Source: Bacteroidota bacterium
GTDB taxonomy: Bacteria > Bacteroidota > Rhodothermia > Rhodothermales > UBA10348
NCBI GenBank assembly: GCA_022567305.1
Contig: JADFHF010000019.1
Coordinates: forward strand, 1-63,658
Direction of reading: 5' to 3'
DNA length: 63,658 nucleotides
This document shows, one piece after another, positions 1 through 35,517 of the stretch. Within the stretch, counting starts at the first letter, position 1, and the number at the start of each line of letters is the position of its first letter. The notes below the pieces were generated by a model. That model saw only the letters and a program-made list of their open reading frames with translations, made no database searches and was not told the origin of the DNA. The translations under genes were made by a program, and so were the position numbers.

Positions 1-1
1 A

Positions 2-628
2 TTTAAGATTTCAGATTTCAGATTTGTCCCTCGGCTTCCGGAGATACCTCTCGCAAAGCAGGGCAACCCTCCTCCGCTTGCGCTTCAGGTTTCAAATGGG
101 TCTTGCAAACCTGCTTGCACCCCCAAGAAGATCAACGGCACGCTCGGTACGGCGCTGATGTGGGCCGAAAACGTCTCTGCCGCGAGCAGTCAGGCGAGAG
201 CAGAGGACAAGCTCATCTTCCTGTTGCACGTCTCCGGCAACTTCGCCCGTGAAGAGTTCACGTGAAACAACGCCCAGAAATACAGGGCAGTTGCCCTGTC
301 GGACCCGAAGGTCGGAGAATACCTCGGCAAATATTTCGTGGCGGCGCACCAGCAGGTGGGCGACTTCAAGGTGACTAACGTCCGCGGCAAGATCCAGCGC
401 AACGGCGGCAACGTGGTGAGTTACTTCTGCACGCCGGAGGGCCGCGTGATCTACGCAGTGGTTGGGCCGGTGAAGCCAGAGAAGTTATTGAAAGCGGCCC
501 GCTGGGCGCATGAGACTTTTCGTGCAGGCATCGCCGCGGTCGGCCGCAGCCGCGTGAAGCTGAAACGCTACATCGAAACTGCCCACGCCGCCGAGTTGAA
601 TACCACCCCCTCCGCAATCACACAGTAG
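2..628 (+). pseudogene. Thioredoxin-fold protein, planctomycete-like, interrupted by in-frame TGA
   Basis: One reading frame is open from the window edge to the TGA at 263-265 and then continues in the same frame to the TAG at 626-628. The joined product has a thioredoxin-like layout: a strand ending in HVSGNF, then a helix, then KYFVAAHQQVGDF, then a GGNVVSYFCTPEGRV strand pair. I recognise this arrangement from thioredoxin-like proteins of Planctomycetes, not from Bacteroidota. The DNA is GC-rich compared with the genes that follow, and a 7-bp repeat (GATTTCA, positions 7-25) sits at the edge. No start codon is visible because the 5' end is cut off. The simplest reading is a pseudogene or an assembly-edge fragment. 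A selenocysteine TGA is a less likely alternative, because the stop falls near where the active-site helix of a thioredoxin fold begins. Confidence 0.55.
7..25. repeat. GATTTCA short tandem repeat
   Basis: Two full copies and one partial copy of GATTTCA lie at the left edge of the window. Such A/T-rich 7-mer runs are common between genes in some planctomycete genomes (recollection, not checked). It is low-complexity sequence and no function can be assigned. Confidence 0.5.
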
Positions 629-1125
629 TTGCGAGTATCGGAGCAGCCGCCCAATCGCTCGTCAGAGATTACTTCGAGGAGCCGGGCTTTCGGGTATGTC
701 GTCTCCACCAGAAAGCCTGCAAACTTCATCACATGTCAGCGAACCAGGTAGACGTGAGAACAACCTGTCTCTACGACAAACGCGATGCAGAATAATCAAG
801 TGCGATTTAGAACTCGAATCAGCTCACCGTCAAACATCCCCAATCGGAGGCTATAACGACAGACCGGAATGGTTTTCGCATCCTTGTCGGAGAGAGTTTT
901 GTGGATCCGCTGGATGGCCAAATTATGGTCATCCATAAAGGCTGCCCAGGAATGGCGGGTCACATGGTCGTTAGCCGAATATCGATTTCGCAGAGCAGTG
1001 AGGCTCAATTCCACTGGGCACCAGCCTCGCAAAACTCGACACCAACCCGCCTAAGACACCCGGTTTCAGGCTCACCCTCTTTTTCCGTAGTTTCACAGGC
1101 AGGGAAAAACATCTTATCTCGGTCA
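629..1125. other. Intergenic stretch without a supported gene
   Basis: About 500 bases separate the broken thioredoxin-fold gene from the first convincing gene. Short open frames exist on both strands. The longest are a 78-codon frame on the minus strand (796-1032) and an upstream extension of the following gene from 901. None has a recognisable motif, a good ribosome-binding site or a convincing signal. Composition shifts from GC-rich to the mixed composition of the main region somewhere here, so a boundary between DNA of different origin may lie in it. Confidence 0.4.
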
Positions 1126-4038
1126 TTGCCTGATCTCAGCGACCTTCGCCTCTCTGCACTCACGAAGAGGTTTCTCTTTCTATTCGGATTCGTAATGATC
1201 ACCTGCAGCTTGCCTAGCGCGAGCGCCCAGGTGGTGCCACTCTACGATGTCATTTATCGCCCACCCGGGCTGAAGTATTTGGTGCTCAGAGGCGACCATT
1301 TCGATATCATTTTTGAGCGTGGATTGAGGGAGCAAGCAAGTGAAACCCTGTTCGTCCTGGAGAGCACGCTTGCGGGAACCGATACACTGACCGGGGCGGG
1401 ATTCAACCTGTTTATGCCGGTTGTCTTGAATAAATTCAACGACCGGGCAAGCGGCTTCGTAACCTCATTTCCTTTTAAGCAGGAGATTGCGGCGACGGCC
1501 AGAAAGGGGAGAAGCCTATCCAGACGCCATCCGTCATGGACCTATGTCGTAGCACCACACGAAGCCGTACACGCGGCCCAAGCAGATTTCAGTGGTGGGA
1601 CCGGTTTGGTTGGGTTTTTCAGGTGGTTCTCTCCTGATTTTGCCAGGAGCCTGAATATGTTCGTACCCCCAGGTATCTCCGAGGGAGTGGCGATATTTCG
1701 TGAAAGCCAGCTGACGGAGGATGCAGGACGATTGCATCACCCGTTTTTTACGATGCAGTTCCGGGCCGCTTTTGAGAACGGACGAGGTTGGTCTCTCACC
1801 CAGATGTTGGAATCGCCCTCGTTTACGAGACCGTTTGATCGTTTTTACGAAGGTGGAGCCCATTTCATAGAGTATCTGGTTGATCATTACGGAGATAACG
1901 TCATTCAGCGTCTTTCGCAGTGGCAATTTCGATTCCCGTTTCTGGGCTACGGTGCCAATCTGATCTATGCCACTGATACGACTCCTTCCAAGCTCTCCCG
2001 CTCATTTCGAGAGTGGATTCGGGAAAACGAAAGAGCTCGAATTGAAGAGCTCGGCGCGCTGACAGACGGCACGTTGATTTCCGGAAAGGAGGGCCTGGTG
2101 AATCGGCGCCCGCACTGGCTAAATGACTCGACCCTGGTCGCATTTTCTGTGGGATACAATCTTCGTCGGGGATTTTATCGCTTCGACCTGGAAAGCCGAA
2201 ATCGAGAACTCATTTCAAATACGACGATCACTGAAGATGCCACGTTTTCGCTCAACCACGACAGTACGGCCATTCTTTATTCGCGCTACGAGAGAGATCC
2301 GTTCGTAGCCGTTCAAGAGCGGGCCAATGTTTTCTCTACGGATTTGGTCACCGGCGAGATCAAACGACATTCCAGGTGGGCGCATGCTATTAATCCGGTG
2401 GAAACGGCCGCTGGAAAAATCCTGGCTCTGAGGAACGACCGTCAGTTTAACTCGGTCGTGGAAATTGACGAGAGGGGTCTTTCTAACCTGGTTGTTAGCT
2501 ACGACAGGGCGGACTTCGTGAGCCTGTTACCAAGGCCAAACACGGATTCACTGGCTGTGTTGATGAACGTCAAGGGTCATCAGGCTTTGTTTGTGACATC
2601 GTTAAGAAATCTCGGCGAGGCAGATTTGTTGCCCTGGATCGGATTCGAGGGAGTGAGCATCTACGACGCAACCTGGAGCAAGAATGGTCGCTATTTGATC
2701 TTTACGGCCGATCTTGGTGATGTGCAAAATGTCTATGTCTCCGACGAATGGACCGACAGGATGTGGCGATTGACTAACGTGCCGTACGGTGCGCTGGAGG
2801 GAGCCCTGTCGCCGTCAAACCGCGTATTCGCTTATGTCGAGTACAGAGATCAGCGCTTTGAATTAAAGACATTGCCTTTTGACCTCGACCGTGCTCTCGA
2901 AATCGATCGCGATTTGGCTCGTTACACCGAGAGTGTCCCATGGAGATCGTGGCTCGAAGAATCTTACGATTACTATGGACATCTCAAGCCAAAGCCATAC
3001 CGCAGTTTGAACTATGTGGCGCCTCGGATGGTCTACCCGACCTTCTATTTGGATGCACCCAGAAGACAGGATGCGGATGCTCGAATGGGATTCGGAATAG
3101 GAATCGCGACGCAGGGAACAGACCCTCTTCAGGAATGGACGTATTACGGAGAAGGAATTTTGCAGCGAAGTCGCCTCTGGGGTGAACTCGGATTGCAGTG
3201 GGGAGGCAGTCTTGTCCGTCCGTCTCTCAACTATTCAAGCCGGCCGCAGACCATAAACGCGATCATTAGGAGCGGAACCACCACGAGAGAGCAAAGACTG
3301 ATTCGCCTTCGCCAGCAGGCCTCGGTCGGTCTTAGGGTTCCAATAACGCTTGCGGAAAACGTATTTCGAACGTCCGTCACCGGGCGACTCTCTCTCAACT
3401 TTCGTCAGGATCAATTCGTTGACGACGATTTTCAGCCTATCACCGCACAGACAAATCGGACAACACTTTCCCCTGCAATCATATTCGGATACAAATTCCA
3501 GCAAAACGTCCGAGATCTGATTCCTAATTCAGGCATTGGTATACGATTTTTCAGTGATATCGACGTGGCCGTGAATGGAGGAAGTCTCAAACGAGCATTG
3601 ATCGGCCTGGGCGACGTATACCTACCGTTATTGGCACGGATCAACACGGGTTTGCGTATCAATACGGGTGTAGTCGTCCAAAACAGTCCGTCTGTATTTA
3701 ATCTCGATTTTTTTAAGCCTAGAGGGCGAGAAGACGTATTTATTCCGAAGGGCACGTCATATCGCTATGGATTCACCGCCACTCAGCCGATCCTCTTCAT
3801 CGATGATGGACTGCTTCTACTTCCAGTTTATTTAAAAGCTGCGTTTGTGTACGGATTTGCTGACCGCCTACTTACGACTGGAATAGATTCGGAAGACTAT
3901 TCGAGTTTGGGATTTGGCGTGGGTCTTCAGCTGAGGCTGTTCTATACGTTTGATCTCGATTTGCGATTGGAAGCGGCTTATTCCCCTGACAGAAAATCGT
4001 GGGATGTGGCATACTGGATAAACTCAACCAGGTATTGA
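1126..4038 (+). CDS. Secreted metallopeptidase-MA / TolB propeller / outer-membrane barrel fusion protein
   Basis: The frame is open from 901, but a signal peptide (KRFLFLFGFV, then SLPSASAQ) begins near 1165. I therefore prefer the TTG at 1126 (970 residues); ATG 1195 would remove most of the signal. Counting from 1126, HEAVH at residues 145-149 followed by Glu186 in PPGISEGVAIF forms the zinc site of a peptidase-MA-like gluzincin. A GGAHFIEYL..YG segment follows, as in that family. Residues of about 300-600 hold WD40/TolB-like propeller blades. The last 300 or so alternate in the manner of a beta-barrel and end in Tyr, as outer-membrane proteins do. The likely role is a surface-anchored protease or sensor, but the substrate is unknown. 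There is no operon partner; the next gene follows after about 90 bases. Confidence 0.72.
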   Translation: MPDLSDLRLSALTKRFLFLFGFVMITCSLPSASAQVVPLYDVIYRPPGLKYLVLRGDHFDIIFERGLREQASETLFVLESTLAGTDTLTGAGFNLFMPVVLNKFNDRASGFVTSFPFKQEIAATARKGRSLSRRHPSWTYVVAPHEAVHAAQADFSGGTGLVGFFRWFSPDFARSLNMFVPPGISEGVAIFRESQLTEDAGRLHHPFFTMQFRAAFENGRGWSLTQMLESPSFTRPFDRFYEGGAHFIEYLVDHYGDNVIQRLSQWQFRFPFLGYGANLIYATDTTPSKLSRSFREWIRENERARIEELGALTDGTLISGKEGLVNRRPHWLNDSTLVAFSVGYNLRRGFYRFDLESRNRELISNTTITEDATFSLNHDSTAILYSRYERDPFVAVQERANVFSTDLVTGEIKRHSRWAHAINPVETAAGKILALRNDRQFNSVVEIDERGLSNLVVSYDRADFVSLLPRPNTDSLAVLMNVKGHQALFVTSLRNLGEADLLPWIGFEGVSIYDATWSKNGRYLIFTADLGDVQNVYVSDEWTDRMWRLTNVPYGALEGALSPSNRVFAYVEYRDQRFELKTLPFDLDRALEIDRDLARYTESVPWRSWLEESYDYYGHLKPKPYRSLNYVAPRMVYPTFYLDAPRRQDADARMGFGIGIATQGTDPLQEWTYYGEGILQRSRLWGELGLQWGGSLVRPSLNYSSRPQTINAIIRSGTTTREQRLIRLRQQASVGLRVPITLAENVFRTSVTGRLSLNFRQDQFVDDDFQPITAQTNRTTLSPAIIFGYKFQQNVRDLIPNSGIGIRFFSDIDVAVNGGSLKRALIGLGDVYLPLLARINTGLRINTGVVVQNSPSVFNLDFFKPRGREDVFIPKGTSYRYGFTATQPILFIDDGLLLLPVYLKAAFVYGFADRLLTTGIDSEDYSSLGFGVGLQLRLFYTFDLDLRLEAAYSPDRKSWDVAYWINSTRY

Positions 4039-4131
4039 ATCGCAACAAAAATTTCATCGTTTCGAATTAATGTCAAGCGAACCCCAAAACGCAACCGGGG
4101 TTTAATTGGAAAATGATTAATACTCTCTCCT

Positions 4132-4500
4132 ATGGAACGACTCAAGTGCAAGGCGTGCAAATGCTACAGCATGGTGCCCATGGAAGTCTCTTTGGAGGCT
4201 GAAGAAATTGAAGATCCCAACGCGGACTCAAAATTTTATACCTGCCACGTCTGCGGTGACAATTGGCTGTCCGTAAGGGAGGACGAAGATACTGGAGAGA
4301 GTCGCGTCACTTTCGTCCACCAAATGGGCATGTCGCCGGTGCTCAAAAGAGTCGCGCATCTCCAGAAGCATGTCGTGCTGAAGGAAACCACAGTAGAAAA
4401 GTGGGATTATTATTTCGACGACGAGGAAATAGAAGAAAAACGGTGGCAGGAAAAGCTGAACAATCGTCGAAAAATTCTCAAGTCAATCTGCACGAACTAG
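4132..4500 (+). CDS. Small zinc-ribbon protein, function unknown
   Basis: This is a 122-residue soluble protein. Cys6-x2-Cys9 near the N-terminus and Cys38-x2-Cys41 in FYTCHVCGDNW form a four-cysteine zinc ribbon like those of TFIIS or transcription-associated proteins. The C-terminal half is a charged helix rich in Glu, Lys and Arg. No enzyme motif is present. The ATG at 4132 has no obvious ribosome-binding site, which is common in this genome. I do not know a named family. A nucleic-acid-binding or RNA-polymerase-associated role is only an inference from the ribbon. Confidence 0.6.
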   Translation: MERLKCKACKCYSMVPMEVSLEAEEIEDPNADSKFYTCHVCGDNWLSVREDEDTGESRVTFVHQMGMSPVLKRVAHLQKHVVLKETTVEKWDYYFDDEEIEEKRWQEKLNNRRKILKSICTN

Positions 4501-4556
4501 AATCTCGTGTTTGACCGTCCATCGTTTGAAACCCTGCGCGAGTCCTCCCGTAGGGT

Positions 4557-4570
4557 GCTAAATAATTAGC
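4557..4570. promoter_or_regulatory. Operator-like palindrome 1 (GCTAAATAATTAGC)
   Basis: A dyad with five-base arms GCTAA/TTAGC lies about 90 bases upstream of the BlaI-family gene. An almost identical dyad is found 53 bp downstream. Two matching palindromes ahead of an autoregulated BlaI repressor gene is the arrangement seen in bla/mec operons, although the sequence differs from the classical TACA/TGTA operators. Confidence 0.6.
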
Positions 4571-4609
4571 AAAATAATTTTCCAGCGCTTTACAGTGACC
4601 TTTACAAGT

Positions 4610-4623
4610 GCTAAATTATTAGC
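4610..4623. promoter_or_regulatory. Operator-like palindrome 2 (GCTAAATTATTAGC)
   Basis: This is the second copy of the GCTAA/TTAGC dyad, 33 bases before the blaI-like start codon. The centre-to-centre distance to copy 1 is 53 bp, close to five helical turns, so two repressor dimers could bind on the same face of the DNA. The promoter for the two-gene operon most likely lies between or over these sites. Confidence 0.6.
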
Positions 4624-4656
4624 AGTTTTAAATAAATCAGAAAGCTTATTCAGACG

Positions 4657-5046
4657 ATGAAACGATCCGAGCACGTTGATCTCAGTCGAAGAGAAAGGCA
4701 GATCATGGATGTGATTTACCGGAAGGATTCGGCGACCGCGGCCGAGGTAATGGACAACATTCCTGATCCTCCTAGTTATTCAGCGGTGCGGGCTCTTCTG
4801 CGGATACTCGAAGACAAGGGGCATCTGAAACACGACAAAGTCGGACCACGGTACGTCTACAAGCCAACCGTTTCTGTAGATCGTGCCAAGACAACGGCCA
4901 TGAGACACGTAGTCTCTACGTTTTTCGAAGGTTCTGTTTCCCAGGCTGTGGCTGCATTGCTGGATCTCCAGAAACGTGATCTGAATGAAGAAGAAGTCGA
5001 TCGACTCGCGGAATTGATTTCACAAGCAAAGAGGGAGGGTCGTTAA
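4657..5046 (+). CDS. BlaI/MecI/CopY-family transcriptional repressor
   Basis: A 129-residue winged-helix protein. LSRRERQIMDVIY, TAAEVMDNI and YSAVRALLRILEDKGHLKH are the family's DNA-binding helices and wing, and the C-terminal helix (FFEGSVSQAVAALL) is the dimer and cleavage region. In the known family the repressor is inactivated by proteolysis triggered by a membrane M56 partner. That partner follows one base after the stop codon, so the two are surely co-transcribed. Two matching palindromes upstream (4557, 4610) suggest autorepression. No beta-lactamase gene is nearby, so the regulated response may not be beta-lactam resistance. Confidence 0.88.
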   Translation: MKRSEHVDLSRRERQIMDVIYRKDSATAAEVMDNIPDPPSYSAVRALLRILEDKGHLKHDKVGPRYVYKPTVSVDRAKTTAMRHVVSTFFEGSVSQAVAALLDLQKRDLNEEEVDRLAELISQAKREGR

Positions 5047-5047
5047 T

Positions 5048-8000
5048 ATGTTTGATTGGTTCAACCTGGCTGGTACCGGTACGGCACTCGCCTATCTGAT
5101 CGAAGTGACGGGTAAAAGTCTGGTTGTGTTCGCCTTGGCAGGACTGATGGTTGTTCTGTTCAGACGTTCGTCCGCTGCGGATCGGCATCGTATTTGGTTT
5201 GCTGCTCTCGCAGGTGTGATCCTGTTTCCCATCTTGACGGCGATTCTACCGTCGTGGAGGGTTATTCAGAACCCGGAATGGCTGGACACCTTAAGAAACG
5301 CAGATACAGAATTGAGTGACCCGATGGCCCTGGCTGGTGTCCCTCCACTTCCAACGCTGTCATCTGCGATCGAAGGTTCACCACTACTTGTTGTCGGAGC
5401 CGTTCCTCAGGTATTTGAAAGGGATCCGGCCGAAGCCGGTACTGCACCGGTGCCCGGACCTCCCAAGATAGCCTCTCAAGAAGCCGTTGATTCGAGTGAG
5501 TCGTCACATCCCTTGTTTCAGTCGCTTTCAGCGCTGGCCACTCGTCTGAAGAATATGCACTGGACGACGGCTCTTTTTTGGGTTTGGCTGATCGGTGCTA
5601 TCGCCGTTTTATCGCAGTTGGTAACCGGTGCGGTCGGAGTTCTCTTTCTGGCTCGACGTGCGACACCCGTACGGGATCAGCGTTGGCGGGATCTGTCAGA
5701 TGAAATCGGTGATCGTTTGTTCTTGACGCGCGATGTTCACTTGCTGAAGAGCAGAGATACGAGTATGCCCATGACGTGGGGGGGTATGAATCCCGTCGTT
5801 CTCCTTCCAACTGACGCGGACACCTGGTCGGAAGAACGTCAGAGATGTGTCCTGACACACGAACTCGCTCATATTAAACGTTGGGACTGTGCCACACAGG
5901 GAGTCGCTCAACTGGCCTGTGCGATTTACTGGTTCAATCCGCTTGTCTGGCTCGCCGCAAAACGCCTTCGCATTGAACGCGAAAAAGCCTGTGATGACTA
6001 TGTGATATCGGGAGGCATGCAAGGCTCGAATTACGCCGGGCATCTCCTTGAAATTGCGAGATCACTCAAGGCATCGTTTCTTCCTCCATTAGGAGCGGTA
6101 TCGATGGCACGCCCAAGCCAACTGGAGAGTAGGGTACTGGCCATTCTTGATCCTGCTCCTCGCAAGCATCGGTTTTCGACGAGTGCGCGCGTCCTCGTAG
6201 CGGTACTCACGCTCGGCGTCATCTTTCCATTGGCGGCCATGGTTCCGGTGTCGGAGTCGTCGTTCGAGAGAGACGTAGCCCTCGTGTCTAAAACTAACCC
6301 ATCTGAAATGGCTCTCGTCCCAAGTGCAAGGCCAACCATCCGTCCAAATCCGGTGGTTCAGAATACAGACGATTTCGTGTCCGTCGCCGATACAACGGAT
6401 AGGGAAAAACGACGATTGCGTCTGGTAAGGGCTTTTAAAACGGCGCTCTCAGATAGCGATGCGGAGATCCGCCAGAATGCGGCTCACATGTTGGGTAAGA
6501 TCGGAAAGGAGGAGTCTATTAAAGCGCTGGCTGCTTCTCTGCGTTCGGACGACGAAGCCGATGTTCGCGAGCAGGCTGCCTGGGGCTTGGGAGAGATTGG
6601 CAGCCATCAAGCGGTTGACGCGCTCCTAGGAGCGCTCGACGATACAAGCGCGGGCGTTCGTAGACAGACAATATGGGCACTGGGAGAGATAGAAAGTGAC
6701 GATTCAATCGGTGCTCTTTTGGAGCAATTGGAGAAAGAAAAAGACGCCGACGCTCGAAAATTGGTCGTCTGGGCCTTGGGTCAAATTGAACATGAACGAG
6801 CTGTTGACGGCCTGGCAAGTGCCTATATAAACGAATCGAATCCTGAGGTTCGGGAGAAGATTATCTGGGCGCTCGGAGAAATCGAAAGTCCGCGGGCAGC
6901 AGCGACTCTTCGACGTGCGGTTGAAGATCAGGACCCTGAAATCAGGTCGATGGCCCTCTGGGCCCTGACAGAGTTGGACGATTCTGAATCGATCCCTGCG
7001 TTCCGTCGAGCGCTGAAGGATTCAGATCCAGATGTTCGTCGAAGAGCCGTTTGGGGCTTGACGGAAATGGAGGATCCGGGGGCCGTTGATGGACTCATCG
7101 AAGCATCTCGAGATTCAGATCCCGAGGTCCGGCAGATGGCGGTTTGGGGCCTTGGGGAATTTGAGGATGGGCGTGCGCTTGCCGCTCTTCGACCCGCGCT
7201 CGATGACCAGGATGTGTCCGTAAGACGCTCAGCCGTGAGGGCTCTGGGAGAGATGCAGGACGAAGGGGCCCTCGATGGACTCATTAAAGCGCTCGCGAAT
7301 GATGATGAGGAAACCAGGCAGATGGCCGCGTGGGCGCTGGGAGAAATAGAGAGCGAACAGTCAGTTGCTGCTCTAATGAGGGCGTTAAACGATTCAAGCC
7401 GAGATGTTCGGAAGACCGTTCTGTGGGCTCTTGCAGAAATCGAGGACGAGCGTTCGATCGATGTGATCATTGAAGCCACCGCAGATCCTGATGAGGATGT
7501 CCGGGAGATGGCCATTCATGCACTCATGGAATATGAGCGGCGTGACATCGAAGCCGCGTTCATACGGAGCCTTTCGGACGATTCTGAAGACGTAAGAGAA
7601 ATGGCTGCTTTGGGTCTCGGCGAATACGAATCTGATCGGGCGGTTGTGGCATTGGGAACCACATTGCTAAACGATTCTTCCATGGATGTGAGAGCTCATG
7701 CTGCGTACGCATTAGGAGAAATCGGAACCGAAAAGGCTATTTTAGTCCTGGAAAAGGCCCTGGAAGACGAAAATACAGAAGTGCGTAAGGCGGCTACTCG
7801 AGCACTAATCCAAGTGGACTTTTCTGATGATTCGTATCACAGAGACCGATCAGACCGCGACGTAGATATTGACGGCTTCGCGAATGTCGTGGTAGGAGTA
7901 GGAGAAGAAATTGCAGATGTAGCCGTTGCAGCGATTTCGATGATTGCGGAGAAATTGGTTAGCCCGGAACTTGACGCTATTGTGACCCATGCTACGGAGA

Positions 8001-8215
8001 TGTCTCTCGATACAATTGATTGGGAAGAGATTGAAGAAGCCGTTGCGGATGCCCTCGACGAGATCGATGAGGAAATCGATGAATCTATTACGGTGGCACT
8101 GATAGAGATTGTGAAAGCCAATCCTAACGGCCGTGCCGGTCGGAAGGCACTCAGAGTTCTCAAGAACTCAGACCATCCGGATGCTCGTGCATTCATAAAG
8201 AAGTACAAGAACTAG
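5048..8215 (+). CDS. M56 (BlaR1-type) membrane metallopeptidase fused to about 15 HEAT repeats
   Basis: A 1055-residue protein. Membrane segments lie near residues 11-37, 46-66, 174-200 and 378-400. The cytoplasmic zinc site is HELAH at 271-275, with Glu310/Glu312 in the R.E.ACDD segment. BlaR1 proteins normally end with a penicillin-binding sensor domain. Here the final membrane helix is followed instead by a tandem array of about 31-residue HEAT/PBS-lyase repeats (about 451-924, each resembling VR..A.WALGEIE..), then a Glu/Asp-rich helical tail. HEAT solenoids bind proteins, so the sensed signal is probably a protein or envelope component rather than a beta-lactam (inference). The gene starts one base after the repressor gene. 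Codon use matches its neighbours. Confidence 0.85.
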   Translation: MFDWFNLAGTGTALAYLIEVTGKSLVVFALAGLMVVLFRRSSAADRHRIWFAALAGVILFPILTAILPSWRVIQNPEWLDTLRNADTELSDPMALAGVPPLPTLSSAIEGSPLLVVGAVPQVFERDPAEAGTAPVPGPPKIASQEAVDSSESSHPLFQSLSALATRLKNMHWTTALFWVWLIGAIAVLSQLVTGAVGVLFLARRATPVRDQRWRDLSDEIGDRLFLTRDVHLLKSRDTSMPMTWGGMNPVVLLPTDADTWSEERQRCVLTHELAHIKRWDCATQGVAQLACAIYWFNPLVWLAAKRLRIEREKACDDYVISGGMQGSNYAGHLLEIARSLKASFLPPLGAVSMARPSQLESRVLAILDPAPRKHRFSTSARVLVAVLTLGVIFPLAAMVPVSESSFERDVALVSKTNPSEMALVPSARPTIRPNPVVQNTDDFVSVADTTDREKRRLRLVRAFKTALSDSDAEIRQNAAHMLGKIGKEESIKALAASLRSDDEADVREQAAWGLGEIGSHQAVDALLGALDDTSAGVRRQTIWALGEIESDDSIGALLEQLEKEKDADARKLVVWALGQIEHERAVDGLASAYINESNPEVREKIIWALGEIESPRAAATLRRAVEDQDPEIRSMALWALTELDDSESIPAFRRALKDSDPDVRRRAVWGLTEMEDPGAVDGLIEASRDSDPEVRQMAVWGLGEFEDGRALAALRPALDDQDVSVRRSAVRALGEMQDEGALDGLIKALANDDEETRQMAAWALGEIESEQSVAALMRALNDSSRDVRKTVLWALAEIEDERSIDVIIEATADPDEDVREMAIHALMEYERRDIEAAFIRSLSDDSEDVREMAALGLGEYESDRAVVALGTTLLNDSSMDVRAHAAYALGEIGTEKAILVLEKALEDENTEVRKAATRALIQVDFSDDSYHRDRSDRDVDIDGFANVVVGVGEEIADVAVAAISMIAEKLVSPELDAIVTHATEMSLDTIDWEEIEEAVADALDEIDEEIDESITVALIEIVKANPNGRAGRKALRVLKNSDHPDARAFIKKYKN

Positions 8216-29190: not shown

Positions 29191-29970
29191 ATGAAACTTT
29201 CCTCTCTGGACATTCGGAAGCAAGAATTTACCCGGGTTGTTCGCGGATTCGACAAGGAAGAAGTCGATGCATTTCTTCAGCTGGTTGCCAATCAATGGCA
29301 GGAACTCGTCGACGACCTTAGACGCGAGGAAGAAAAGACGAACGACCTGAACGCCAAGCTCGGACACTATCAAAAGGTTGAAGAGGCGCTGGAGCAAGCT
29401 CTGAAAACAGCCAAAGATGGGGCCAGGCAGACGATCGACAACGCTGAGCACAAAGCGAGATTGGTCATTGAAGAAGCCGAATCGAAGTCCGTTGGAATTA
29501 CTAGAGATGCGGAATCAGAAAGGCTGAATATTAGAAAGGAGGCCGCGAAGTACTCCGTTCGACAAAAGGAAATCATAGCAAAATTGCGGGCCTTCTTAAT
29601 GTCTGAGCTGGAGATCCTCGCACAGTACGAAAGCGAGACACCTGTCAATTATATCAAATTAATTCCTGCGGAATTTTCTGAGTTGATGGAAAAATACCCT
29701 GATGCAGAGGATGGAGACGAGAGTGGCGAAGTGGATGAGATCGATGTCACCGGGCAGAGTGAGTCAGACGCGGCTGCTGACCAGCCCGCAGAAGACGAAG
29801 TCTTGGAAGAAGCCCTGGTAGACGAGGCGGGAAGCGAGGAGGCACAGGTCGAACCCAAATCCAGTTCCAAAAAGAAGAAAGCATCCAGAAAGAATTCTCA
29901 GCTGCAAGAACCGGAAGTGTCAGACGAGATTGCGAAGATCAGGCGTATACTGGAGGACCTGGAGAAATAA
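29191..29970 (+). CDS. divIVA: DivIVA-domain protein
   Basis: A 259-residue protein. The N-terminal LSSLDIRKQEFTRVVRGFDKEEVDAFL is the DivIVA lipid-binding domain including the GFD..EVD..L signature. Residues of about 30-165 are a long coiled coil, and the C-terminal 90 are Glu/Ser-rich with a Lys tract. In Gram-positives DivIVA marks curved membrane and recruits division or growth factors; Bacteroidota homologues are little studied. It lies between the small membrane protein and punA. Confidence 0.88.
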   Translation: MKLSSLDIRKQEFTRVVRGFDKEEVDAFLQLVANQWQELVDDLRREEEKTNDLNAKLGHYQKVEEALEQALKTAKDGARQTIDNAEHKARLVIEEAESKSVGITRDAESERLNIRKEAAKYSVRQKEIIAKLRAFLMSELEILAQYESETPVNYIKLIPAEFSELMEKYPDAEDGDESGEVDEIDVTGQSESDAAADQPAEDEVLEEALVDEAGSEEAQVEPKSSSKKKKASRKNSQLQEPEVSDEIAKIRRILEDLEK

Positions 29971-29990: not shown

Positions 29991-30818
29991 TTGGATATCT
30001 CACCTGCTCTGAAGGCCGCGAATGCCGCCAGAGAATTTCTATCCAATCGAATTCAGGAAATCCCTCAACTAGCCATCATTCTTGGCACGGGATTGGGAAA
30101 CCTTGGCGAGGATATCGAAACGTCAGATTCCATCGCGTACGATGAGATTCCGAATTTTCCTATCTCTACGGTCGAATCCCATTCTGGACGGCTTCTGGTG
30201 GGTACGCTCTCTGGAGTGCCCGTGCTGGCCATGCAGGGTCGAGTTCATCTGTATGAGGGGTATTCAGCTCAGGAAGTAACGCTTCCAGTGCGGGTCCTCT
30301 CATCGCTCGGAATAAAATCCCTGATCATATCCAATGCCGCTGGTGGGATGAATCCGCTCTTTCGCAGGGGCGACATCATGATGATCACGGATCACATTAA
30401 CCTACAGGGTGCGAATCCACTAGAAGGTCCTAATGTAGATGAGTGGGGTCCGAGATTTCCAGACATGAGCGAACCGTACGATCGGGCGCTCCGCGACTTA
30501 ACGGAGTCTTCGGCTTTGGAACTCGGTGTTCGCCTGGTTCAGGGAGTGTACGTGGCCGTCACTGGACCCAATCTTGAAACGAAAGCGGAGTACCGTTTTC
30601 TCCGGGCAATCGGCGGAGACGCGGTAGGCATGAGCACGGTACCGGAGGTGATAGTTGCTCGCCATATGGATATGCGCGTTCTGGCTTTTTCTGTAATTAC
30701 TGATGAGTGTTTTCCCGATGCACTGAAGCCGGTTTCGATTGAAGACGTGCTGGCGGCCGCAGCCTCTGCGGAACCGGACCTTAGACGACTCATTTCGAAT
30801 GTCGTTACGAGCGTCTAG
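29991..30818 (+). CDS. punA: Purine nucleoside phosphorylase
   Basis: A 275-residue trimeric-type PNP that splits inosine and guanosine with phosphate. IILGTGLGNLGEDIE, the phosphate-site HSGRLLVGTL, MQGRVHLYEGYS, ISNAAGGMNP and YVAVTGPNLETKAEYRF are all present. The start is a TTG at 29991 supported by GAGGA eleven bases before it. It follows divIVA by 20 bases, so it may belong to the same transcript. Confidence 0.92.
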   Translation: MDISPALKAANAAREFLSNRIQEIPQLAIILGTGLGNLGEDIETSDSIAYDEIPNFPISTVESHSGRLLVGTLSGVPVLAMQGRVHLYEGYSAQEVTLPVRVLSSLGIKSLIISNAAGGMNPLFRRGDIMMITDHINLQGANPLEGPNVDEWGPRFPDMSEPYDRALRDLTESSALELGVRLVQGVYVAVTGPNLETKAEYRFLRAIGGDAVGMSTVPEVIVARHMDMRVLAFSVITDECFPDALKPVSIEDVLAAAASAEPDLRRLISNVVTSV

Positions 30819-31057: not shown

Positions 31058-31129
31058 CTATTACTTGTTCGCCGTCCCTATTCGAACTCTTATTTCCGGT
31101 GCGTCTGTACGACTACCGGGATATTGTTT

Positions 31130-34100
31130 ATGAATCAATTTGTTGAATACGGCCAGATCAATCTTCCAGAGATCGAAGAGAAGATTTTGGACTGGTGGAA
31201 GAAGGAGGACATTTTCGGACGGAGTATAGCCCAACACGAAGGGGAACCTAGTTTTACGTTCTACGAAGGTCCTCCGACCGCTAATGGGCAACCGGGGATT
31301 CATCATGTAATGTCCAGGACGATTAAGGACGTCTTCTGCCGATACAAAACCATGAAAGGATTTCAGGTAGAGCGAAAAGCGGGATGGGATACGCATGGGC
31401 TCCCGGTTGAAATCGAGGTTGAAAAGGAACTGGGCCTGGAGGGGCGTCAGCAAGTCGAAGAGTTTGGTATCGAGCGGTACAATGCGGCCTGCCGAGAAAG
31501 CGTTCTTCGATACAAGGAGCAATGGGATAACCTAACCGTTCGAATGGGTTATTGGGTTGATCAGGAGAATCCGTATGTCACGTTCCAAACGACGTACATC
31601 GAATCGGTCTGGTGGTTGCTCAAGCAGATTTATGAAAAGGGATATCTGTACGAGGGGTATAAAATTCAGTGGTACAGTCCGGGATCGAACACGGTCCTTT
31701 CTTCGCACGAGGTTAGCCTGGGCTACGAGGAGGTTCAGGATCCGAGTGTCTTTATCCGATTTAAGTCTGATGAGGAGGAGGACACGTATTTCCTGGCATG
31801 GACCACGACGCCGTGGACACTCATATCGAACGCGGCGCTGGCGGTCGGGCCCGATATCGAATACGTCAAGATCCGGTGCCAGACGGATGACATCGGAACT
31901 CAATACCTCATTCTGGCCAAAGACAGGTTGTCTGTAATCAAGGAAGAATATGAGCTTGTCGAGACCACGACGGGTTCGGACCTGCTTGGAAAAACCTATC
32001 AGCCGCTCTTTGACTATTTCAAAGATGAAGAGGGGGCCGAGAATGCCTGGCGAGTCGTTTCGGCCGACTATGTCACCACTGAAGACGGCACGGGAATCGT
32101 GCATACCGCCCCGGCCTTCGGAGCTGAAGATTTTGAAACGTCCAAAAAGGAAAATCTTCCGGTGCTGAATCCAGTGTTGCCCGACGGACATTTCACTGAA
32201 GAGGCCGAGCTCGTATCGGGGCTTTGGTTTAAGGATGCCGATAAAGTGATTTCCAGAGATCTCAGGGATCGAGGACTGCTCTATCGACACGAAACGTACG
32301 TGCATAACTATCCCCATGACTGGAGAAAAGGGACGCCTTTAATGAGCTATCCGGTCGAGGGTTGGTTCATTCGCACGACAGCCATAAAGGATCGTCTGAT
32401 AGAATTGAATGACCAGATTCGCTGGCAACCGGAAAGCATTGGGCGGGGCAGGTTTGGAGATTGGCTAGTCCATAACGTGGACTGGGCTCTTTCGAGGAAG
32501 CGATTCTGGGGGACACCGCTTCCCATCTGGAAGTCGGACGCACCCGAATCTGAGTATATCGAAGTGATTGGGTCGCTGGAAGAACTCCGTTCGAAATGCG
32601 GCGATCAACTTCCCGGTAATAACGAAGATGTAGATCTGCATCGGCCGTTCGTCGACTCTCTAACGTGGGATGCACCCGACGGCGGGACCATGCGACGCGT
32701 GGAGGACCTCATCGATGTCTGGTTTGATTCTGGAGCGATGCCGTTTGCACAGTGGCATTACCCGTTCGAAAACAAGGACCAGTTCGAGCGATCGTTTCCT
32801 GCTGACTTTATCGCCGAAGCAGTCGATCAAACTCGAGGCTGGTTTTACACGATGCATGCCATTTCTGTACTGGTCATGGATGAGCTCGCTTTCAAAAACG
32901 TGGTGGTTAACGGTTTCGTTCTGGACGAGAACGGAGAGAAGATGTCCAAGAGCAAAGGAAATGCCGTTGATCCGTTTAAAATGATTGATAAGTTTGGCGT
33001 CGATGTGATTCGGTGGTACATGATGAGTAATGCACCTCCTTGGGAAGACCTCAAGTTTTCTGAGCGAGGACTCGTCGAAACCCAAAGGAAGTTCTTCAAT
33101 ACCCTTTCAAATGTTTACTCGTTTTTTGCTACGTACGCGAATATTGACGGCTTCACGTACGCAGAAAATCCAGTACCGGTCCAGGATCGGTTGGAATCTG
33201 ACCGGTGGATTCTGAGTCGTCTTCATTCCACGGCGTACATGGTGGATGGGGCACTCGATGATTATAACCCCACTAAAGCGGCTAGAGCGGTTGAGGAATT
33301 CGTCGACGATCTTTCAAACTGGTATATCCGACGGAACCGTCGGCGATTTTGGTCTGCCAAGGACGCCGTTCGATATGGTGAAGAGGTCAATCAAAAACTG
33401 AGTGCCTATCAGACGGTTGCCGAATGCCTGCTCTCGGTGGCGAAGCTCATGGCACCGTTAGCTCCGTTTTTTAGTGACTGGTTGTTTAAAGCTGTGAATG
33501 AGGTGGTCGGTTTGGAGACGAGCATTTCGGTTCATTTGTCGGAGTTCCCTGATTCTTCGAAGTCGGATGATTTACAAGATCCCAGTCTCGAACATCGGGT
33601 GGGACAGGCGCGTGCCGTGTCATCAATTGTTCTAGCCCTTCGAAATAGATCCGGACACAACGTCCGACAGCCTCTCAGCAGAATCATGGTGGTCACGGGC
33701 CCCAGGGTCGAGCGCGTAGTGATCGAACAGATGAAGGACATGATCCTTGAAGAGGTTAATGTTCGACACATTGAATACGTAGAGGGGTCCAGTTCGGTGG
33801 TAACCCGTCAGGCCAGACCGAATTTTAAGGTGCTCGGGAAACGACTGGGTCCGCTCATGAAACCGGTGAATCTTGTGATTCGCGACTTTTCTGATGAACA
33901 GATCGACGCATTCCTCGAAGACGGTTCGATAGAGGTAACCGTAGACGGTCAAGCAGTCGAGTTGGCCGGTGATGATCTGGAAATTGTAAGCGAAGGTGTA
34001 GAGGGTTGGCTGGTGGGTCAGGAGAGAGGGGTCACGGTGGCGCTGGATATAGAATTAACGGACGAATTGATTGCCGAAGGACTGGCAAGAGAGACCGTTA

Positions 34101-34333
34101 ATCGAATCCAGAATATGCGAAAAACGGCTGATTTCGACATTACTGATCGGATCAAGATCACGGTTAGTGGATCGGAACTATTGCTCGCAGCAATCGACCT
34201 TCACGCCGATTGGATCAGGAACGAGACGTTGGGTTTGGAGTTGGAGGTGGCTAGTGATCCAGATGGTGATCTCGTCTCCAGCTTTGAGATTGATTCCGAG
34301 CGGTTGACAGTGGGTGTGCGTCGTATAAAGTAG
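31130..34333 (+). CDS. ileS: Isoleucyl-tRNA synthetase, type 2, with swapped GIHH signature
   Basis: A 1067-residue class I synthetase that charges tRNA-Ile and edits Val-tRNA. The ATG at 31130 fits the family better than the in-frame TTG six bases earlier. The catalytic signature that is usually HxGH reads G-I-H-H at residues 56-59 (NGQPGIHHVMSRTIKD), that is, its first and third residues are exchanged. KMSKS lies at 604-608 and GWDTHGLPVE near 85. The editing domain contains AWTTTPWTL. The long C-terminal part without a CxxC zinc finger is typical of the archaeal/eukaryotic-like type 2 enzymes, which resist mupirocin; the swapped GxHH form is reported to be hyper-resistant. DksA-like and lspA genes follow. 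Confidence 0.95.
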   Translation: MNQFVEYGQINLPEIEEKILDWWKKEDIFGRSIAQHEGEPSFTFYEGPPTANGQPGIHHVMSRTIKDVFCRYKTMKGFQVERKAGWDTHGLPVEIEVEKELGLEGRQQVEEFGIERYNAACRESVLRYKEQWDNLTVRMGYWVDQENPYVTFQTTYIESVWWLLKQIYEKGYLYEGYKIQWYSPGSNTVLSSHEVSLGYEEVQDPSVFIRFKSDEEEDTYFLAWTTTPWTLISNAALAVGPDIEYVKIRCQTDDIGTQYLILAKDRLSVIKEEYELVETTTGSDLLGKTYQPLFDYFKDEEGAENAWRVVSADYVTTEDGTGIVHTAPAFGAEDFETSKKENLPVLNPVLPDGHFTEEAELVSGLWFKDADKVISRDLRDRGLLYRHETYVHNYPHDWRKGTPLMSYPVEGWFIRTTAIKDRLIELNDQIRWQPESIGRGRFGDWLVHNVDWALSRKRFWGTPLPIWKSDAPESEYIEVIGSLEELRSKCGDQLPGNNEDVDLHRPFVDSLTWDAPDGGTMRRVEDLIDVWFDSGAMPFAQWHYPFENKDQFERSFPADFIAEAVDQTRGWFYTMHAISVLVMDELAFKNVVVNGFVLDENGEKMSKSKGNAVDPFKMIDKFGVDVIRWYMMSNAPPWEDLKFSERGLVETQRKFFNTLSNVYSFFATYANIDGFTYAENPVPVQDRLESDRWILSRLHSTAYMVDGALDDYNPTKAARAVEEFVDDLSNWYIRRNRRRFWSAKDAVRYGEEVNQKLSAYQTVAECLLSVAKLMAPLAPFFSDWLFKAVNEVVGLETSISVHLSEFPDSSKSDDLQDPSLEHRVGQARAVSSIVLALRNRSGHNVRQPLSRIMVVTGPRVERVVIEQMKDMILEEVNVRHIEYVEGSSSVVTRQARPNFKVLGKRLGPLMKPVNLVIRDFSDEQIDAFLEDGSIEVTVDGQAVELAGDDLEIVSEGVEGWLVGQERGVTVALDIELTDELIAEGLARETVNRIQNMRKTADFDITDRIKITVSGSELLLAAIDLHADWIRNETLGLELEVASDPDGDLVSSFEIDSERLTVGVRRIK

Positions 34334-34383: not shown

Positions 34384-34827
34384 ATGGCAAGGAATAAAGC
34401 AGTTGCGGCCGAGACTGATCTGAACCAGGAAGAAGTCGCTTCGGAACCCGTAGAGACGTCATTTTCAAAGAAGGAGCTCCAACACTTCATGGAACTGATC
34501 GTTGATAAAAGGCACTCCGCTCAGGAAGACATCGATGGAATGCGGGGCCAACTTGCGGACGCCAGAGAACAGGCCGAGAATGATACCGCGTATAGTTTCC
34601 ATATGGCCGACGCTGGAACGGATGCCATGGAGCGTGAAAAGCTATTTCTGATGATTGCACGTCAGCAGAAGTATATCGGATATCTGGACCGGGCCATAGA
34701 ACGCATCGAAAACCGAACCTACGGCGTTTGCAAGGTTACCGGGCAGCCCATCTCTAAAGAACGACTCGAAGCCGTACCTCACACCGAGATATCCATCGAA
34801 GCGAAACTTCAGCAGCAAAAGAAATAG
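34384..34827 (+). CDS. DksA/TraR-family protein with degenerate zinc finger
   Basis: A 147-residue protein. A long helical hairpin (residues of about 30-105) is followed by YGVCKVTGQPISKERLEAVPHT, the position of the DksA zinc finger. Only one cysteine is present instead of four, so zinc is probably not bound. It resembles YlyA/TraR-like proteins that act on RNA polymerase. Its place between ileS and lspA matches ylyA in Bacillus. It is likely co-transcribed with lspA, which starts nine bases after it ends. Confidence 0.85.
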   Translation: MARNKAVAAETDLNQEEVASEPVETSFSKKELQHFMELIVDKRHSAQEDIDGMRGQLADAREQAENDTAYSFHMADAGTDAMEREKLFLMIARQQKYIGYLDRAIERIENRTYGVCKVTGQPISKERLEAVPHTEISIEAKLQQQKK

Positions 34828-34836
34828 GATTTCATT

Positions 34837-35517
34837 TTGAGGGCTGCTATAGAAGCGGGGGCGAGCCAGAGCAGATCGAAACGCTCTTTCACCCAGCGAG
34901 CGATCTGGCTCATCGTCAGCGTCATTGTCGTAGATCAGGCGTCCAAGATAGCGGTTCTCAATACGATGAAGCGGCAGGAGTCGATCAGCCTGGTCGGCGA
35001 TTGGTTACGGTTCACCTTTACAGAAAACCCGGGGATGGCGTTTGGCATCGAATATGGGCCGGCAACGTTGATAACGGTGTTTTCCATCGCAGCCACGGGT
35101 CTGATCATACTCTATCTCAGGAAGGTCGGCCATTTCTATACCCCGTACCGGTTGAGTCTCTCAATGGTGCTGGGTGGTGCCATTGGAAATATCATTGACC
35201 GGGTTTTTTACGGATTGATTTTATACGATGGCCCGCTTTTCTCCGGCAAGGTGGTCGATTTTATCCATATCAATGCTTGGAAGGGATACGTATCTGAGAG
35301 TATCCCGGTACTGGGCGGCAAATATCTCCAACTCTTTCCTATCTGGAACGTGGCCGACATGGCTATTGTCTTCGGTGTCGTAGGCATACTGATCTTTCAG
35401 CGCCGGTTTCATGATTTGGCAGCTGAACAGGAGAAGGCCGATATGGATACCGAGGCAACCGTGGCAGGGGGAAAAGACGTGCAACCGATTCCCGCATCAA
35501 CCTCGGCAGAGAGCTGA
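34837..35517 (+). CDS. lspA: Lipoprotein signal peptidase
   Basis: A 226-residue inner-membrane aspartyl protease that removes signal peptides from prolipoproteins. VDQASK in the first helix, ENPGMAFGI, GGAIGNIIDRVFYG and PIWNVADMAI carry the conserved motifs, including both catalytic aspartates (in IIDR and VADM). Four membrane helices are visible. The start is a TTG at 34837. An N-terminal 20-residue basic lead and a 35-residue polar tail make it longer than the usual 160-170. Convergent with the TonB receptor gene. Confidence 0.93.
   Translation: MRAAIEAGASQSRSKRSFTQRAIWLIVSVIVVDQASKIAVLNTMKRQESISLVGDWLRFTFTENPGMAFGIEYGPATLITVFSIAATGLIILYLRKVGHFYTPYRLSLSMVLGGAIGNIIDRVFYGLILYDGPLFSGKVVDFIHINAWKGYVSESIPVLGGKYLQLFPIWNVADMAIVFGVVGILIFQRRFHDLAAEQEKADMDTEATVAGGKDVQPIPASTSAES

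Follow-up and report, generated by a model that had tools for sequence, protein, structure and literature searches.

A housekeeping type 2 isoleucyl-tRNA synthetase with an exchanged GIHH signature motif in a Rhodothermia bacterium

Exchange of the first and third residues of the HXGH signature motif to give GXHH is rare when all class I synthetases are considered together. In type 2 isoleucyl-tRNA synthetases (IleRS2), the change was discovered by Brkic et al. 2023, whose sequence set contains 77 enzymes with HXGH and 86 with G/AXHH, so that 86 of 163 carry the swapped form (PMC10485003). The same study found the swap in no type 1 enzyme (IleRS1), and IleRS1 variants engineered to carry it were inactive (PMC10485003). 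On introduction of the swap, the mupirocin Ki rose ~175-fold for TtIleRS2 and 430-fold for PmIleRS2; the opposite change in DrIleRS2, back to the canonical motif, lowered it 823-fold (PMC10485003). In a model, the third histidine of the swapped motif takes the position of the first and clashes with mupirocin (PMC10485003). The motif by itself does not set the absolute Ki, as the engineered GVHH TtIleRS2 has a mupirocin Ki of only 35 µM (PMC10485003). The described enzymes of this class include the IleRS2 of Deinococcus radiodurans (ALHH) and of Streptomyces griseus (PMC10485003). Both are type 2 and show the same first/third exchange as the enzyme analysed here, whose motif is GIHH; they come from a different phylum.

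The ileS gene and its signature motif

The window, meaning the whole stretch of 63,658 nt that we analysed, contains ileS at 31130..34333 on the forward strand, encoding a type 2 IleRS of 1067 amino acids. These coordinates refer to the in-frame ATG start at 31130; the open reading frame from TTG spans 31124-34333 (+) and adds two residues. The protein scores 944 bits against TIGR00392, well above the curated cut-off of 621, which identifies it as an isoleucyl-tRNA synthetase.

The signature motif reads GIHH at residues 56-59, counted from the ATG (31295..31306, +; codons GGG ATT CAT CAT). When the protein is aligned to solved IleRS structures, PmIleRS2 among them, GIHH occupies the site taken by HXGH in the canonical chains and pairs with the GVHH of 8c8w, the top PDB match. 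This entry, a crystallised GVHH mutant of the close homologue PmIleRS2, shows the location of the motif. The initial annotation had read the first and third positions as exchanged at this site, and both the codons and the comparison with solved structures, in which GIHH falls on the HXGH position itself, confirm that the observation is real and correctly described. Its statement that the remaining motifs are intact also stood: GWDTHGLP is found at residues 85-92 (31382..31405, +) and KMSKS at residues 604-608 (32939..32953, +). We rejected the idea that sequencing or assembly had corrupted a canonical HIGH motif, a reading of negligible probability, since two codons would have had to change in concert and the motif is common to all 78 relatives with a readable motif and to all 148 genomes sampled from the phylum.

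We found only one ileS in the genome (assembly 95.6% complete, 115 contigs); the second or canonical copy for which the initial annotation had recommended a search was not found in this assembly, and the remaining matches of the IleRS search are related synthetases. Canonical motifs occur elsewhere in the genome, namely HMGH (ValRS), HVGH (LeuRS) and HIGH (MetRS), these enzymes being named from motif context together with profile matches. On these grounds we reject a change affecting the organism's class I motifs in general, and because ValRS, LeuRS and MetRS are canonical, the swap is specific to IleRS.

Type 2 assignment and predicted mupirocin resistance

The window enzyme is a type 2 IleRS by (i) its full-length closeness to PmIleRS2, (ii) its C-terminal domain and (iii) the residue at position 50. 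The best PDB match is Priestia megaterium IleRS2 (8c8u, 8c8v; GVHH mutant 8c8w), with 8c8w scoring 892 bits over residues 13-1024; 8c9f, the highest-scoring IleRS1 from that work, reaches 377 bits over residues 11-806. At the C-terminus, a DUF5915 domain (residues 869-1065; 33734..34324, +; PF19302, E 1.6e-60) replaces the type 1 zinc-binding C-terminus, and the domain search detected no IleRS zinc finger family of type 1 in the protein. Thr50, within GPPTANG, occupies the position of E. coli IleRS1 Tyr59, where eukaryote-like IleRS carry Phe or Thr (PMC4861432). With Gly first and His third at the HXGH position, the enzyme fits the G/AXHH class in every feature that can be assessed from sequence, and it is one more sequence of a published class, since the swapped motif in type 2 IleRS was already known.

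By homology with G/AXHH IleRS2, the third-position histidine would supply the catalytic contact that is normally given by the first histidine of HXGH. The enzyme is plausibly functional and would be expected to charge tRNA-Ile in the usual way. The same histidine would clash with bound mupirocin and render the enzyme highly resistant. The link between the swap and very high mupirocin resistance in type 2 IleRS, invoked by the initial annotation, is a published one (PMC10485003), and strong resistance of the window enzyme is likely by homology with the enzymes studied there. Two further positions bear on drug binding. From the alignment we infer that Ser62 corresponds to PmIleRS1 Asn70, a mupirocin contact in IleRS1 at which the relatives have Ala, Ser or Gly, and that Phe596 corresponds to PmIleRS1 Phe586, which stacks on mupirocin. 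Wild-type PmIleRS2 has HVGH where the window enzyme has GIHH, and His582 at the position of Phe596. Through Phe596, the window enzyme may keep at least one drug contact of mupirocin-sensitive enzymes. Because of this residue and the modest Ki of the engineered GVHH TtIleRS2, an absolute mupirocin Ki is not readable from the motif.

Distribution of GXHH in the phylum and its relatives

We determined the form of the motif in relatives and, by DNA pattern search, in genomes of the same phylum. GXHH, as GIHH, GVHH, GLHH or GMHH, is present in 78/78 relatives with a readable motif, drawn from Rhodothermia, Balneolota, Ignavibacteriota, Bacteroidota, Cloacimonadota, Zixiibacteria, Calditrichota, Chlorobiota and some Gammaproteobacteria. 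At the DNA level, all 148 genomes sampled from the window's phylum (83 genera) matched the pattern encoding NGxPGxHH, against only a handful of matches to the reversed control pattern; wherever compared, the listed NGxPGxHH match coordinates lie inside IleRS matches. The canonical type 2 DNA pattern matched in 7 of the 148 genomes. One of these matches, PPEPNGYPHIGH, the sole one read in a long frame, belongs to a different protein that is GlnRS/GluRS-like by motif, and the match in assembly G033 falls outside any long frame carrying the motif; in the remaining ones the X letters are not hydrophobic, unlike those of HXGH. With two of the seven matches checked in sequence, this DNA pattern search found no canonical type 2 IleRS among the 148 sampled genomes of the phylum.

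The swapped form is thus the only one seen across the 83 genera sampled from the phylum, and no oddity. GIHH is here a fixed, inherited housekeeping trait, ordinary in the phylum. The rarity that the initial annotation had ascribed to the swap does not hold for this lineage, and in the published set roughly half of the type 2 enzymes carry it (PMC10485003). A small quick tree, with only three canonical rows coded and long branches, does not test how many times the motif originated.

Could the swap be a recent, local adaptation of this species to mupirocin-like antibiotics? In each of the three IleRS2 enzymes tested, the swap does raise the mupirocin Ki (PMC10485003), but GXHH is universal in the phylum sample and extends to relatives from Ignavibacteriota, Cloacimonadota, Calditrichota, Chlorobiota and Zixiibacteria. 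Acquired and producer-associated genes also speak against it. MupA, the plasmid-borne mupirocin-resistance IleRS of staphylococci, is a type 2 enzyme ~39% identical to the window enzyme, but it is an accessory copy with canonical HTGH; the window enzyme itself lies outside the MupA and MupB families, with 841 and 838 bits against the cut-off of 1900 of NF000257/NF000258. The IleRS on plasmid pTML1 (NC_015708.1 16377-19523) of the thiomarinol producer Pseudoalteromonas sp. SANK 73390 has HHGH, and a producer of a mupirocin-like drug thus does without the swap in that plasmid IleRS. With the swap fixed across the phylum, local adaptation is refuted for this species, and we consider it extremely improbable. 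Any account of GXHH as a rare antibiotic adaptation must explain both phylum-wide fixation and the canonical first and third residues in MupA and the thiomarinol-plasmid IleRS.

We are highly confident in a different reading, in which the window IleRS is the housekeeping type 2 enzyme of a Rhodothermia (Bacteroidota/Rhodothermota) bacterium, its GIHH would have been inherited from an ancestor of the phylum, and homology predicts strong mupirocin resistance. The cause of fixation is a separate matter. GXHH may have been fixed for a reason other than mupirocin, be it catalysis, editing or a neutral feature of the architecture of this IleRS2 clade, with resistance as a by-product; its phylum-wide fixation, spanning many genera, and the lack of the swap in the acquired MupA and thiomarinol-plasmid genes favour such an origin. 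The published reversals, however, had a large drug effect and small catalytic effects, with no alternative benefit demonstrated (PMC10485003), and ancient selection by a mupirocin-like compound would be expected to leave the same pattern. We regard fixation for a non-mupirocin reason as a serious possibility, though somewhat on the improbable side.

Gammaproteobacterial copies and gene neighbourhood

Nine gammaproteobacterial genomes, including that of the isolate Salinisphaera japonica, carry a Rhodothermia-like GXHH IleRS2. In each of the nine, no other match exceeds the IleRS cut-off. In a quick tree, these copies branch inside Rhodothermia, with SH-aLRT 99 for the group of 22 rows that contains them and leaves the Balneolota rows outside. 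The Salinisphaera japonica gene is flanked by a SufE gene on one side and a cobalamin-independent methionine synthase-type gene on the other, and in the gammaproteobacterial sequence L032 the IleRS is found at 4001-7171. Across a class-wide sample around Salinisphaera, the pattern search matched in 7/75 genomes, several of these matches evidently arising by chance as judged by the X residue. The data suggest horizontal transfer into Gammaproteobacteria with replacement of the type 1 IleRS. Most of the nine genomes are metagenome bins, in which binning error is possible; this hardly applies to the isolate. A fuller scenario, which we offer only tentatively and hold to be rather doubtful, is that the swap became fixed, for a non-mupirocin reason, in the ancestor shared by Bacteroidota and relatives, that phylum-wide resistance is a by-product, and that the gene was later carried to Gammaproteobacteria (Salinisphaera and others), replacing type 1 IleRS.

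On contig 10 (5.6 kb) of assembly G115, within positions 1-4500 of piece L145, a short frame begins like a GXHH IleRS for ~100 residues and then continues into unrelated sequence; it is either a disrupted second copy or a join made in assembly.

In the window, ileS is preceded on the same strand by genes for a DivIVA protein (29191..29970, +; PF05103) and a purine nucleoside phosphorylase family protein (29991..30818, +; PF01048), and is followed by those for a DksA/TraR-type zinc finger protein (34384..34827, +; PF01258) and the signal peptidase II LspA (lspA, 34837..35517, +; PF01252). The Rfam search of the window yielded two tRNAs only and no upstream regulatory RNA for ileS. Further away, positions 901-4035 hold an open frame of 1045 residues with no Pfam match at E 1e-5, and positions 5048-8212 encode a BlaR1-type M56 peptidase domain joined to a long HEAT repeat array.
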